From NCBI GenBank assembly GCA_021390615.1, contig JAJEJU010000024.1, positions 310,001 through 374,000 on the forward strand: DNA of 64,000 bases, in the 5' to 3' direction. Positions 13,834-17,601 of this stretch are shown piece after piece. Each line of letters begins with the position of its first letter. Positions within the stretch are counted from its first letter, which is position 1. The position numbers were made by a program, and so were the translations under genes. The notes under the pieces were generated by a model. The model was not told the DNA's origin, searched no databases, and was given only the letters and a program-made list of their open reading frames with translations. Source of the stretch: Rhodanobacteraceae bacterium ZG21-1. Its GTDB lineage: Bacteria > Pseudomonadota > Gammaproteobacteria > Xanthomonadales > Rhodanobacteraceae.

Positions 13834-13914
13834 ATCGGCCGGCGGCGTAAATCGGCCGATGGCGTAAATAGGTCGAAGCGGTAAATCGCACGACGCGGTA
13901 AATCGTCCCGTTAT
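13830..13914 (+). repeat. Five 17-bp degenerate tandem repeats
   Basis: Units begin at 13830, 13847, 13864, 13881 and 13898 with an exact 17-bp period. All start GTAAAT and most continue (C)GG(C)CGA with a GCG/GGC end; the last unit is diverged after eight bases. The TAA stop of the response-regulator gene lies in unit 1. Seventeen bases is not a whole number of helical turns, so a simple one-face operator array is not obvious. Confidence 0.85.
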
Positions 13915-13973
13915 CTCGTCGGGTGCCGGCGAAATTATTTTTCGCTGGGTGCTTGCAACGGCGAAATAATGCA

Positions 13974-14011
13974 GGTAATGTTCGCCGCCTTCGCCATTGC
14001 GGCGAATTACC
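13974..14011 (+). promoter_or_regulatory. Leader hairpin upstream of a small ORF
   Basis: GGTAAT plus TTCGCCGC on the left pairs with GCGGCGAA plus TTACC on the right, with a small bulge and a loop of about ten bases. It sits just ahead of an AGGA and the candidate ATG 14026. The same GGCGAAAT(T)AT word also occurs at about 13927 and 13960 in this relatively AT-rich patch. Confidence 0.45.
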
Positions 14012-14025
14012 AGGAATATGAGTCC

Positions 14026-14163
14026 ATGTCATTCCATTGCCACATTGCTGCACGGCCGAAAGCGTCGCCCCAGGGGCGCGTCGCTGGCCTGCGCGTGCCG
14101 GGCATGGAAGGCATGCTCCGCCGCGATACGCGCGGCAACCTGCTTCAAGTCATTGTGATGTAG
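14026..14163 (+). CDS. Possible 45-residue small protein
   Basis: ATG 14026 is preceded by AGGA at ten bases. The peptide begins MSFHCHIAARPK and ends GNLLQVIVM, with a basic middle. No family is recognised. Support comes from context rather than sequence: a structured leader precedes it and a strong intrinsic terminator follows 50 bases after its stop, so a short transcript ends here even though no longer ORF exists. It could equally be a non-coding small RNA. Confidence 0.35.
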   Translation: MSFHCHIAARPKASPQGRVAGLRVPGMEGMLRRDTRGNLLQVIVM

Positions 14164-14181
14164 CTCGACTGATCCCTGCGC

Positions 14182-14254
14182 GGAGATCGGTCACCCGATC
14201 TCCCGAGGCAAGGCGAACGCCCTCGGGTTCACCACCCGGGGGCGTTTTGTTTTT
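14182..14254 (+). terminator. Hairpin plus strong Rho-independent terminator
   Basis: A perfect 9-bp stem (14182-14190 with 14195-14203) is followed by an 11-bp stem with one T-G wobble (14217-14227 with 14235-14245) that runs straight into TTTTGTTTTT. This is the best intrinsic terminator in the first 17 kb, and it ends whatever is transcribed from about 13.9 kb. Confidence 0.88.
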
Positions 14255-14569
14255 GCCGTTCGCAGGAGAGTCAGTATCGAGAACATCGCGAGATCCGTTT
14301 CGCTCCGAAGCATCCGGCCGGATCGGCCGAGGCGGGAGCGTCGCTGCAGACAGGCGCAGGTGCGCCGCGCCAGGGTGCTTCGGCGCGGGCGGCGCGAGGA
14401 ACGGCTCCGGGAATCGGGCGCATGCGCCCTCAAGCATTGCCGACCGGCGACGGCCGGCAATCGGAAGCATGGGCAGAAAGGCTCCAGCGGTGCGGGTTCC
14501 ACCACCCGTCCGGTGCGCGCGGCATTGCCGTGGCGTATGCCGGGGCCGGCCTCGACCATGTTTCACATG
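14255..14569 (+). other. Gene-free, hairpin-rich stretch before the tRNA-like pair
   Basis: No credible ORF is seen. Visible structure includes inverted arms around 14309-14319 and 14368-14378, a GGGCGC/GCGCCC palindrome near 14416, an ATTGCCG/CGGCAAT hairpin near 14430-14460, and a T-arm-like CGGG-loop-CCCG at about 14494-14510. It may be the promoter/UTR of the downstream RNA-repair operon or part of a structured RNA. Confidence 0.45.
14519..14535 (+). promoter_or_regulatory. Weak sigma-54-like promoter candidate
   Basis: GG at 14521-14522 and GC at 14533-14534 have the required ten-base spacing, with GGCA at the -24 part. The -12 part (TGGCG) is a poor match to TTGCA. It would start transcription about 25 bases before the first tRNA-like module. 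It is offered because rtcBA operons are sigma-54 dependent in E. coli. No RtcR gene is in the window. Confidence 0.22.
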
Positions 14570-14640
14570 ATGACGTTAGCTCAGCGGTAGAGCTGCCGCT
14601 TCACGGCGGAAGGTCGCTGGTTCGATTCCGGCACGTCGTT
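14570..14640 (+). tRNA. tRNA-like module 1 (Val-CAC-like, short anticodon loop; probable pseudo-tRNA)
   Basis: It has a 7-bp acceptor stem (14570-14576 with 14633-14639, one wobble), TA at 8-9, a D-arm GCTC/GAGC with GG in its loop, a 5-base variable region, and a T-arm with the classic TTCGATT loop. The anticodon arm is defective: only a 4-bp CCGC/GCGG stem with a 6-base loop (TTCACG), one base short. If U33 is kept, the anticodon would read CAC. No CCA is encoded. The body is well preserved, so this is either a decayed tRNA or an RNA that mimics tRNA without decoding. Confidence 0.6.
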
Positions 14641-14713
14641 CACTGGATAGCTCAGGCGGTTAGAGCATCGGGGCCATGCCCCGACGGTCGCGGGTTCGAC
14701 TCCCGCTCCACCA
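14641..14713 (+). tRNA. tRNA-like module 2 (Met-CAT-like, defective; probable pseudo-tRNA)
   Basis: It abuts module 1 with no spacer. D-arm GCTC/GAGC, anticodon stem TCGGG/CCCGA, a 5-base variable region and T-arm GCGGG/CCCGC with loop TTCGACT are all good, and CCA is encoded. Defects are that only the inner four acceptor pairs form (TGGA/TCCA), that position 33 is C rather than the universal U, and that the loop flanks can pair to give a 7-bp stem with a CAT triloop. It is unlikely to decode. It lies upstream of slipin-rtcB. Confidence 0.6.
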
Positions 14714-15203
14714 TGACCTGTCACGTCATGACCACAGGAACGAAAGTTCCGCCAAGGAAGCGCCCCGCGCTGCGCGGGACGGGCCGCCAGGGATCGTGGC
14801 CGGCTTCGCGCAGCAGCGGTGGTGCGGCCGGGCCCGCATCCCCAGTCCGGGTTGCGCTTGTCGAGACACGCCCTGCGCGGTATGGCCGGGCCCTGTCGAG
14901 ATAATCGAAACCGGACCAGGCGTGCCGGCTCCGCCGCATGGTCGTCGGGGCGCTTCCGATTTATTTTAGTCGATCGCTTTTATAGCGATTCGATAATCCC
15001 GGGCGGGAGGATGAATTACGCCTCGGGATTATGTACTGAATATGGCGTCGTACCGGTTCGCCGGCGCCATGCTTTGTCATCCAGCGGACCGGTTATCGGC
15101 ATATACGGTGTCATTGCGTATGGCACCGGCTGGGTACGGACATGAGCCGTCCCAGACATGCCAGCGCCCCGCTTCAGCGGGGCAAATCACAAGGAGAGTC
15201 ATC
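14714..15203 (+). other. Long structured leader between the tRNA-like pair and slipin
   Basis: There are 490 bases without a credible gene but with many perfect stems: CATGAC/GTCATG (14712-14730), GGAAC/GTTCC (about 14738), CCCGCG/CGCGGG (about 14765), ATCGCT/AGCGAT (about 14972-14990), TAATCCCG/CGGGATTA (14994-15001 with 15024-15031), a 10-bp ACCGGTTCGC/GCGGACCGGT stem (about 15052-15093), GGTGTCA/TGGCACC (about 15107-15127), and CCCCGC/GCGGGG just before the slipin ribosome site. This density suggests a functional RNA or a 5' UTR that controls the operon. Confidence 0.5.
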
Positions 15204-16325
15204 ATGTCCTGGATCAAGCAAATCGTGATCGGCGACGGCGAGCTCGGTTTGCTGTATCGCAACCGTCGCTTCCAGCGCGTCCTGCGCGCCGGCGTCTATC
15301 GTCTGTTCGACCCGTTCGGCCGCAGTGCGGTCGGCGTGCACAACCTCGCGCGACCGGAATACGCCGGTACCGACGCCGAGCTGCTGATCGCGCAGATGGA
15401 CGGCCCGCTGGCCGATTACCTCAGCCTGGCCGACATCGGCACCCAGCAGGTCGGACTGGTGCTGAAGAACGGCAAGCTCGAGGACGTGCTCGCCCCGGGC
15501 ACGCGCCGGCTGTACTGGAAGGGACTGGTGCCGGTCGAGGTGCTGGCGCTACCGCTGGCCGACGCGCTGGAGCTGGACGCGCGCATCGCCGGACGCCTGC
15601 GCCAGCTCGGCCTGCTCGGCAAGCTGACGGTGACCGCGGAGGTGCCGGTGGAATCGGCCGGCCTGCTGTTCGTCGACAACAAGCTGGTGCGCACGCTGGC
15701 GCCGGGTTCCTACGCCTTCTGGAATTTCCAGAAGAACGTGGCGATCGAGGTGATCGACCTGCGCGTGCAGTCGCTGGAGGTGTCGGGCCAGGAGCTGTTG
15801 ACCCGCGACAAGGTGAGCCTGCGCGTGAACCTGGCCGCCAGCCTGCGCGTGACCGACCCGGTCGCCGCGCGCACCAAGGTGGCCAAGTACGGCGACTTCA
15901 TCTATCGCGAGCTGCAGTACGGTTTGCGCAAGGCGGTTTCCGGCAAGACGCTGGACGAGCTGCTGGGCGACAAGGCTTCGCTGGACGCGGATATCTTCGC
16001 CTACGTGCGTGGCCGGGTCGGTGAGCTGGGCGTCGAGATCCTCGGCGTAGGCGTCAAGGACGTGATCCTGCCGGGCGAGATGAAGGAGATCCTCAACGGC
16101 GTGGTGCAGGCGGAGAAGGCGGCGCAGGCCAACGTGATCCGCCGCCGTGAGGAGTCGAACGCCACGCGTTCGCTGCTCAACACCGCGCGCCTGATCGAGG
16201 AGAGTCCGGTGCTGATGCGCCTGAAGGAGCTGGAGGCTTTGGAGAAGGTCACCGAGAAGATCGACAAGCTCACTGTGTTCGGCGGCCTGGACGGCGTGCT
16301 GAATCAGCTGGTCAGCCTGAAGTAG
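15204..16325 (+). CDS. Slipin (SPFH/band-7 family) of the RtcB operon
   Basis: This 373-residue protein starts at ATG 15204 with AAGGAGAG upstream. It has no N-terminal membrane segment, unlike classical stomatins, and shows two N-terminal modules of the form GLLYRNRRFQRVLRAGVYRLF and VGLVLKNGKLEDVLAPG. The SPFH domain follows at about residues 150-320 (EVSGQELLTRDKVSLRVNLAASLRV), with a helical tail. Slipins of this type are repeatedly encoded next to rtcB in bacterial RNA-repair operons, where their role is unclear. The gene is 58 bases upstream of rtcB on the same strand. Confidence 0.9.
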   Translation: MSWIKQIVIGDGELGLLYRNRRFQRVLRAGVYRLFDPFGRSAVGVHNLARPEYAGTDAELLIAQMDGPLADYLSLADIGTQQVGLVLKNGKLEDVLAPGTRRLYWKGLVPVEVLALPLADALELDARIAGRLRQLGLLGKLTVTAEVPVESAGLLFVDNKLVRTLAPGSYAFWNFQKNVAIEVIDLRVQSLEVSGQELLTRDKVSLRVNLAASLRVTDPVAARTKVAKYGDFIYRELQYGLRKAVSGKTLDELLGDKASLDADIFAYVRGRVGELGVEILGVGVKDVILPGEMKEILNGVVQAEKAAQANVIRRREESNATRSLLNTARLIEESPVLMRLKELEALEKVTEKIDKLTVFGGLDGVLNQLVSLK

Positions 16326-16383: not shown

Positions 16384-17601
16384 ATGAGTACGCAAGACTA
16401 CCAATGGCTGCACGCCGAGGGCACCACGCCGATCAAGGGCTGGGTGCGCGGCGTGCCGCTGGAAGAGCAGGCCCATCGCCAGCTGCAGAACATCGCCGCG
16501 CTGCCCTTCGTCGGGCCGTGGGTGGCGGTGATGCCAGACGTGCACCTGGGTAAAGGCGCCACCGTGGGTTCGGTGGTGCCGACCCGCGGTGCGATCATCC
16601 CGGCCGCGGTCGGCGTGGACATCGGCTGCGGCATGGCGGCGGTACGCACCACGCTGCACGCGCGCCAGCTGCCGGACAGTCTGGCGCAACTGCGTTCGAG
16701 CATCGAGCGCGGCGTGCCGGTGGGCAACGGGCGCGGCGGCGATCACCGCCGACTGCCAGCGAGCATCGAAACGCGGCTGGCCGAGTCCGGCCTGGAAGCA
16801 AGGCTGGAGCAGATCAAGGCCAAGCACCGCCGCATCCGCACCGACAAGGTCGACAAGCAGATCGGCACCCTGGGCGGCGGCAACCACTTCATCGAGGTCT
16901 GCCTCGACGAGGCCGGCATGGTGTGGGTGATGCTGCATTCCGGCTCGCGCGGTACCGGCAACCTGATCGGCACGTATTTCATCGAGCGGGCGCGCGAACA
17001 GCTGGCGCATCGCGTGCTGGGTTTCCACCTGCCAGACAAGGATCTCGCCTTCTTCATGGAGGGTGAGCCGCTGTTCGACGACTACGTGGAGGCGGTCTCG
17101 TGGGCGCAGGATTATGCCCGCGCGAACCGCGAGGCGATGATGGCTCGCGTGCTGGCGGAGATGCGCCATCGCCTGCCCAGCTTCCAGCTCGACCGGCTGG
17201 CGGTGAATTGCCACCACAACTATGTGCAGCGGGAGACGCATCAGGGTGAATCGCTGCTGGTCACCCGCAAGGGCGCGGTCAGCGCGCAAGCGGGCGAGCT
17301 GGGCATCATCCCCGGCAGCATGGGCACACGCAGCTACATCGTGCGCGGCAAGGGCAACCCCGACAGCTTCTGCAGCTGCAGCCATGGCGCCGGTCGTGTG
17401 ATGAGCCGCACCCAGGCGCGTCAGAGCATCACCCTGAAGCAGCATCGCGAGGCCACCGCCCACGTGGAATGCCGCAAGGATGCGGCGGTCATCGACGAGT
17501 CGCCGGCCGCGTACAAGTCGATCGATGCGGTGATGGCCGCGCAGGGCGACCTGGTGGAGGTAGTGCACACACTGCGTCAGGTGCTGTGCGTGAAAGGCTG
17601 A
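16384..17601 (+). CDS. rtcB: RNA-splicing ligase RtcB (3'-phosphate / 5'-OH RNA ligase)
   Basis: RtcB joins 2',3'-cyclic phosphate or 3'-phosphate ends to 5'-OH ends using GTP and Mn2+, repairing cleaved tRNAs and other RNAs. The 405-residue length matches E. coli RtcB. Metal and active-site residues are present: Asp-Cys in GVDIGCGM, His in GGGNHFIE, the VNCHHN pair, and the guanylylated His in CSCSHGAGR. ATG 16384 follows AAGGAAAGG. It is the last gene of the slipin-rtcB operon and ends at an intrinsic terminator. No rtcA, RtcR or archease gene is in the window. Confidence 0.96.
   Translation: MSTQDYQWLHAEGTTPIKGWVRGVPLEEQAHRQLQNIAALPFVGPWVAVMPDVHLGKGATVGSVVPTRGAIIPAAVGVDIGCGMAAVRTTLHARQLPDSLAQLRSSIERGVPVGNGRGGDHRRLPASIETRLAESGLEARLEQIKAKHRRIRTDKVDKQIGTLGGGNHFIEVCLDEAGMVWVMLHSGSRGTGNLIGTYFIERAREQLAHRVLGFHLPDKDLAFFMEGEPLFDDYVEAVSWAQDYARANREAMMARVLAEMRHRLPSFQLDRLAVNCHHNYVQRETHQGESLLVTRKGAVSAQAGELGIIPGSMGTRSYIVRGKGNPDSFCSCSHGAGRVMSRTQARQSITLKQHREATAHVECRKDAAVIDESPAAYKSIDAVMAAQGDLVEVVHTLRQVLCVKG

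Follow-up and report, generated by a model that had tools for sequence, protein, structure and literature searches.

The slipin gene of Rhodanobacteraceae bacterium ZG21-1 is preceded, in the window considered here (the whole 64 000-nucleotide stretch of DNA that was analysed), by a predicted structured RNA, in which a branched domain is followed by two tRNA look-alikes, 5' of slipin and on the same strand (table 1). Comparison of related loci shows the RNA to be under selection, and its description as a selected tandem tRNA mimic is almost certainly correct. The fuller explanation favoured below, a selected leader RNA of the slipin transcript that acts in trans, has in our estimate an even chance of being right.

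Table 1. Features of the slipin leader region and of the genes that follow it (window positions).
Feature	Position	Strand	Basis or remarks
Promoter-like boxes TTGCAA-N17-TAATGT	13953..13981	+	Sequence reading; conservation
Leader ORF, 45 aa	14026..14163	+	Start conserved; stop conserved, just 5' of hairpin 1
Hairpin 1 of terminator block	14182..14204	+	GGAGATCGG / CGATCTCC
Intrinsic-terminator-like hairpin and T tract	14213..14263	+	5' arm largely complementary to the sequence that follows
Covarying hairpin of the large RNA	14439..14458	+	Pairs 14440-14457 and 14443-14454 covary
Branched domain just 5' of the modules (model R1)	14462..14566	+	Conserved CCGGTGCGCGCGGC..TGCCGTGGCGTATGCC
tRNA-like module 1	14570..14639	+	Short loop instead of an anticodon loop; ARAGORN, Rfam, direct reading
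tRNA-like module 2	14644..14710	+	Four-pair acceptor TGGA/TCCA; ARAGORN, Rfam, direct reading
Hairpin CATGAC/GTCATG, 3' of module 2	14712..14730	+	Alignment, RNAalifold
Hairpin GGAAC-GAAA-GTTCC	14737..14750	+	Pairs 14737-14750, 14739-14748 and 14740-14747 covary
3' domain, then T-rich tail	14756..14957	+	Closed by GGAAGCGCCCC/GGGGCGCTTCC (14756-14766 with 14947-14957)
Slipin (SPFH/Band 7 membrane scaffold protein)	15204..16325	+	Pfam Band_7, 3e-28
RtcB RNA ligase	16384..17601	+	Pfam RtcB, 2.6e-126

Both modules are called by ARAGORN (14570-14641 as tRNA-??? with the two-base anticodon 'ca', 14641-14714 as tRNA-Met(cat)) and both pass the Rfam tRNA model (RF00005; 46.4 and 41.6 bits versus a gathering score of 29), as the lowest two of the 45 tRNA matches of the whole genome, the next one up scoring 52.2 bits. 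By direct reading, module 1 has an acceptor of seven pairs including one G-U (ATGACGT/ACGTCGT), the D stem GCTC/GAGC, the anticodon stem CCGC/GCGG with a 6-base loop and the T arm GCTGG-TTCGATT-CCGGC, while module 2 combines its shortened acceptor with C at position 33 and the T arm GCGGG-TTCGACT-CCCGC. The first-pass annotation, made from the sequence of the window, had reported two tRNA-shaped modules with sound D and T arms, a 6-base loop in the first, and C33 and four acceptor pairs in the second: the reading agrees in each of these details, and the existence of the modules is confirmed by ARAGORN, the Rfam scores, covariation and the relatives. That they abut without a spacer is nearly so, the paired acceptor stems lying approximately 4 nt apart (14640-14643), and they do stand upstream of slipin and rtcB as had been stated, but the slipin start is approximately 490 nt further 3', with additional conserved structure in between.

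Conservation was evaluated at loci found by a slipin search of named genomes, which confirmed 207 relatives; the best 80 of the 207 loci were kept and, by title, nearly all are from Lysobacterales (Rhodanobacter, Dyella, Lysobacter, Luteimonas, Pseudoxanthomonas, Xanthomonas and others). ARAGORN recognised one or more tRNA-like sequences in 64 of these 80 core loci and a minimum of two in 34, all on the slipin strand and upstream of slipin, with anticodons that change or are missing. It found no tRNA in the other 16, two of which are cut short; the modules are discernible in the alignment even at silent loci (e.g. L006, L017 and L054). The main alignment has 79 rows (78 loci and the window, L005 and L058 being left out of all alignments for too little upstream sequence); subset A2 retains 53 of the 79 after thinning of near-duplicates, A1 is additionally without L080, and A3 additionally without L015, the mapped stretch of which was too long.

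Across the 53 rows, 95.0% of the cells of the double cloverleaf are paired (shuffled mean, 84.6%; slid controls, 33.6-46.6%), and two-sided changes occur in 28 of its 38 pairs, a number reached in none of 500 shuffles, with 195 cells carrying such a change versus 52.1 in shuffles. In the same rows pairing is 83.5-98.5% in the four helices of module 1 and 99.5% in the module 2 acceptor, for which four pairs were modelled; the T arms, at 98.5% and 100%, belong to the parts that vary least. The divergent locus L056 has GAGA/TCTC as module 2 acceptor where most others have the TGGA/TCCA of the window; its record is titled Verrucomicrobia, its slipin is 73% identical to that of the window, and an array of 14 apparently normal tRNA genes (L056:30-2043) ends approximately 1.4 kb upstream of the tandem modules. 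The broken decoding parts seen in the window could by themselves indicate pseudogene debris or a chance resemblance, but the compensatory changes and the conservation over the order and further make this extremely improbable, and debris as such is ruled out by the covariation of the double cloverleaf. The first-pass annotation had likewise preferred a selected RNA to tRNA debris and had named a lack of conservation in related genomes, or of compensatory change, as the outcome against it; both were looked for and both are present.

The decoding parts behave differently from the arms. The commonest state of module 1, in 27 of 53 rows, is to have four letters between the aligned anticodon-stem columns, and in 40 of 52 rows the outermost pair of its acceptor does not form. 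The module 2 anticodon loop is 7 nt long in 49 of the 53 rows, 38 of these 49 loops having T33 and 46 a purine at position 37, and the triplet varies freely, taking 25 different forms. Thus, the earlier statement that the decoding parts are lost holds for the window and for module 1 in general, but not for module 2 of most relatives. An odd but functional pair of decoding tRNAs would account for ARAGORN assigning module 2 an isotype in many loci. A decoding tRNA is expected to have a 7-base anticodon loop with U33, which neither module of the window has; an isotype that is stable across orthologues, and not 25 triplets at an orthologous position; and a seven-pair acceptor with a CCA end, where module 2 has four nearly unchanged pairs in the window and in the aligned set (CCA stands immediately 5' of module 2 in 37 of 53 rows). 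By taking into account also that module 1 commonly has a four-letter loop and that the two modules are the poorest tRNA matches of the genome, decoding is very improbable. Since the T arms are constant, the module 2 triplet varied and the module 1 loop short, the RNA, as far as can be judged from the alignment, imitates the body of a tRNA and is not a codon reader.

The same features of module 2 (a 7-nt loop, mostly with T33 and a purine at 37, around a fast-changing triplet) are also those expected of a bait for anticodon nucleases, which would be cut instead of a tRNA, or the cut ends of which would signal damage. According to the excerpt available of a study in Salmonella, the RNA-repair operon is activated when RtcR binds cut 5' tRNA halves that carry a cyclic phosphate (PMC7790460), and such a signal would fit this scheme. 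However, the window's own module 2 loop carries C33, plain drift of an unconstrained triplet yields the same pattern, and in the Burkholderia locus L159 and the similar L144 the folds, as read, show a module 2 with a 4-base loop and a module 1 so shortened that there is no room for both D and anticodon arms. These two loci indicate that an anticodon is not needed everywhere, and the bait is regarded as improbable.

As modelled from the alignment, the modules are the core of a structured RNA of approximately 660 nt (14300-14960). Covariation was assessed over 79 rows and 1107 columns by a script that ran 30 simulations under a simplified R-scape null, in which tree and substitution counts are preserved. 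At E ≤ 0.05 it picked out 18 pairs of columns as covarying, every one within 14318-14929 and with a share of standard pairs from 0.77 to 1.0; a 19th pair, 15056-15089, has an E value of 0.067. An RNAalifold fold of 14300-14975 contains 18 of the 18 pairs, which is agreement and no independent proof, as the program used the same alignment and itself rewards covariation. The branched domain is 90.4% paired, with two-sided changes in 22 of 38 pairs (52 rows), and in the 3' domain the pairs 14832-14929, 14833-14928 and 14850-14911 covary. The T-rich tail that follows the 3' domain is a possible end of the RNA, and a scanner lists a terminator-like site at 14944-14960 of the window. A firm terminator near 14960 was considered and is weakened, as just 30 of the 79 rows show a T tract at this point, which leaves the 3' end of the RNA uncertain.

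The region ahead of this RNA is also conserved. At the promoter-like boxes, which likely mark the start of the leader transcript, TTGC and GTA..gT.CGCg are kept in the 79-row alignment; a consensus scanner reported no promoter-like site, so that the boxes are put forward on their conservation. The ATG of the leader ORF is aligned in 75 of 79 rows, and all 75 have the first stop 11-22 nt before column 14185 (approx. 8-19 nt before hairpin 1), versus 3 and 16 of the 75 with a first stop 5-30 nt before that column in frames +1 and +2, respectively. It comes in 16 different lengths among the 75 rows and has no Pfam match. Within it, an SRxxRDAG-like stretch recurs in many relatives, possibly with an RNA hairpin behind it; the crude pattern used for such a hairpin matched 26 rows and was not counted as evidence. 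Hairpin 1 is paired in 99.8% of cells, with two-sided change in 3 of 9 pairs (A3), the terminator helix is 95.8% and an outer helix 92.3% paired, and three terminator-like sites, the intrinsic-terminator-like hairpin being one, fall in 13850-15220 versus 1.2 expected in shuffles. A candidate competing helix, CCGAGG/CCTCGG, is 98.7% paired and nearly invariant; as an antiterminator it is unsupported by covariation, with no two-sided change. Boxes, ORF and terminator together would make up the anatomy of an attenuator, which may act as a switch, and a small gene with its own terminator is a possible alternative reading of the ORF. The pair of modules described in the first-pass annotation is real, but it is part of a much longer RNA with these elements ahead of it.

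Slipin is the constant partner of the RNA. The branched-domain model R1 matches 25 of 151 genomes of the order at E ≤ 1e-3; at E ≤ 1e-5 there are 20 matching genomes, all 20 among the 37 that have a close slipin and none among the 114 others, the five with matches between the two thresholds being without close slipin. Outside the window's own genome R1 has nine matches at class level, of which six were looked at for slipin in the neighbourhood (the others are G235, G270 and G195): three adjoin slipin (G388, G315 and G387), and around the other three (G365, G219 and G319) the stretch examined contains none. R1 does give weak chance matches.

Slipin loci of lower identity (n = 56: 20 of the order, 33 of the wider class or phylum, and the Burkholderia, Citrobacter and E. 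coli records, leaving out L154 at a contig edge and L138-L141 of core type) were searched with the tandem-module model R2, and the nearest upstream match was taken where a locus had several. There is a match upstream and on the same strand in 51 of the 56, from at least two classes, and 43 of the 51 lie 200-600 nt from slipin; those of L137, L109, L104 and L130 are at 931-1370 nt. R2 also scores ordinary neighbouring tRNA genes, with up to 91.7 bits in the window's own genome, a value that 18 of the 51 exceed, the other 33 resting on position, ARAGORN oddities and R1. The match of L095 has just 24.4 bits, and that of L127 is inside an array of ordinary-looking tRNAs (in this locus, on contig 148 of G392, 13 ARAGORN tRNA calls flank slipin on both sides, and a partial rtcB is upstream). 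No R2 match was found upstream of slipin in L092 (with only approx. 550 nt available), L124, L135, L157 and L158. R1 matches 24 of 37 distant sources at E ≤ 0.01 (25 matches; L124 has two, one inside the slipin gene), mostly directly 5' of, or overlapping, the module match, and outside the class it reaches 55.7 bits in L156 and 36-41 bits in L148, L151 and L152. Locus L146, folded singly, gives two cloverleaves.

The slipin leaders of E. coli (L157) and Citrobacter (L158) have no tRNA call and no R2 match, despite the presence of slipin; L157:5680-5998 and L158:5680-5995 hold a sigma-54-like site and a T-arm-like GGGTTCGATTCCC, recognisable modules being absent. Of 5426 E. coli genomes, 1621 cover at least 80% of the stretch made up of leader and slipin. 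Three loci have an extra tRNA call just 3' of slipin (L105:3211-3285, L107:2306-2380 and L112:5415-5493), and in L093, L094, L095 (with its weak match) and L097 the gene order is rtcB, RNA, slipin, not RNA, slipin, rtcB.

The link with RNA repair made in the first-pass annotation stands as a positional one. Of 69 slipin genomes, 58 have RtcB (the counts of RtcB and RtcR are without G069, G103 and G025, in which slipin is in fragments), but it is missing from seven of the eight outside the window's class; on this ground RtcB is not a universal partner, and a reading in terms of repair only is too narrow. RtcR is above the cut-off in 20 of the 69, in none of the 14 close genomes of the order and not in the window's own genome; RtcA, searched for in 26 of the 69, turned up in 5 of them, in none of the 14 close ones and not in the window's own. 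The window accordingly has neither RtcB together with RtcA nor an adjacent rtcR with a sigma-54 site, as an RtcR-controlled operon is expected to have; the latter arrangement occurs in five distant relatives. There (G565, G644, G816, G693 and G871), rtcR and slipin are oriented divergently, 679-722 nt apart, the leaders (L143-L146 and L149) have a sigma-54-like site with a score of 0.94 at 524-578 nt, and the RNA sits between the two genes, behind the site. The module match is clear in four of the five and weak (37.6 bits) in G871 (L149). The score of 0.94 recurs in the Burkholderia leader L159 and, at 313-315 nt, in L157 and L158, while the rest of the 56 distant leaders lack it; one of ten sigma-54 shuffles of L102 scored 1.0. 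In G288 rtcR is adjacent too, with a weaker site (0.83), and in Citrobacter it is annotated beside slipin. Sigma-54 control of the window's own leader was rejected, no site of 0.9 or above being found in the core leaders scanned and RtcR being absent.

The rtc locus of Pseudomonas aeruginosa, according to excerpts of PMC13086221 and PMC8619066, contains an SPFH gene together with rtcA, rtcB and rtcR. PA4581.1, annotated as a 'tRNA gene' of this species, is among the top rises in expression in a later isolate (excerpt of PMC8743555). From the locus-tag numbers and the adjacent rtcR (PMC8619066, excerpt), we infer that PA4581.1 sits between rtcR and the SPFH gene PA4582; by its number, it may be the same element as the slipin-leader RNA, and the rise would then be a hint that this RNA is expressed.

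When known RNAs were considered, tRNA was the only Rfam family to pass its gathering score, among five matches at E ≤ 1. Of the other four, tmRNA reaches 23.9 bits versus 47 (E = 2e-07; it shares a clan with tRNA), ctRNA_pGA1 25.1 versus 45 and Tymo_tRNA-like 22.2 versus 40. The modules resemble tRNA (RF00005) in the cloverleaf and its D and T arms, and differ in the four-pair acceptor of module 2, in a module 1 anticodon arm without an anticodon and in an isotype that is not kept across orthologues. GOLLD and ROOL are large ornate RNAs with nearby tRNA genes; the present RNA is similarly long and branched with tRNA-like parts, but the five Rfam matches include neither family, and it is the leader of a chromosomal slipin gene. 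A phage origin was rejected: no slipin relative was found in phage records at E ≤ 1e-20, none of 11 pattern stretches in viral contigs was confirmed as such, and one junction pattern had no exact match in viral contigs. The fourth family is YrlA (RF02553), with which the first-pass annotation had compared the modules; as an identity the comparison fails, bacterial Y RNA scoring 22.6 bits where 69 would be needed to pass. The nearest known kind is, nonetheless, the tRNA-like Y RNA that is encoded in RNA-repair operons, a noncoding RNA with a tRNA-like part in an operon governed by RtcR (PMC7790460, excerpt), whereas here there are two modules, another branched domain and slipin, not Rsr, as the constant neighbour. 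No earlier description of this RNA was found in the open-access literature among the matches listed, and a prior mention is possible.

The explanation that we favour is that a structured RNA is carried in the 5' leader of the slipin transcript, which in many species would be part of an RNA-repair locus. The locus would be switched on by RtcR and sigma-54 in some lineages and, in the close Lysobacterales without RtcR, the leader ORF and terminator would serve as the switch. Once the locus is on, the RNA would be produced along with slipin and RtcB, and proteins that handle tRNA would bind its tRNA-shaped arms, so that it could work in trans as a bait, tether or sensor, in a way that may roughly parallel the Y RNA of the rsr-yrlBA-rtcBA operon. 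The first-pass annotation had proposed a decoy, sensor or guide for the repair machinery, a role that is likewise putative. For this trans-acting role taken singly the chances fall slightly short of even. The RNA is 5' of slipin wherever it is found, which suits a role in cis at least equally, and a clear transcript end before slipin is absent, by taking into account the scarcity of the T tract.

A cis-acting leader is the main rival explanation, with a substantial, if minority, probability. The modules would then serve the slipin(-rtcB) mRNA as an operator or as a site of processing, bound or cut by RNase P, RNase Z, RtcB or another protein that sets the output of slipin and RtcB. The upstream, same-strand placement in the distant loci, the leader ORF and terminator that precede the RNA in the close set (a sigma-54-like site in others) and the few T tracts after the 3' domain are all in its favour, even though the window does have a scanner-listed terminator-like site there. 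A precedent is the tRNA-like operator in the mRNA of thrS, the threonyl-tRNA synthetase gene of E. coli. That operator also places a tRNA-like fold 5' of a coding region, but here there are two full modules and several hundred nucleotides of further structure, and regulation is putative. Against a cis role, the RNA is far bigger and more ornate than typical operators, and the modules and the branched domain are kept in both gene orders, rtcB-RNA-slipin and RNA-slipin-rtcB, which points to slipin and not to regulation of rtcB.

Returning to action in trans, a bolder proposal, which we hold only tentatively and consider rather unlikely as a whole, is that an old class of tRNA-mimic RNA, present in at least two classes of one phylum, works with the slipin scaffold. 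The RNA, and not RtcB, would be the constant partner, slipin would keep the tRNA mimics at the membrane, where damaged tRNA would be gathered, sensed or shielded, and RtcB and RtcR would be later or optional additions.

The present findings suggest that bacterial RNA repair has an RNA partner that has been overlooked. With them, the RNA-repair neighbourhood gains a structured and widely kept mimic of tRNA, which is a concrete candidate for binding to slipin, RtcB and RtcR. If PA4581.1 is the same element, existing RNA-seq of P. aeruginosa may already hold data on it (PMC8743555, excerpt). Where RtcR is absent, the leader ORF and the terminator may provide a second mode of control.
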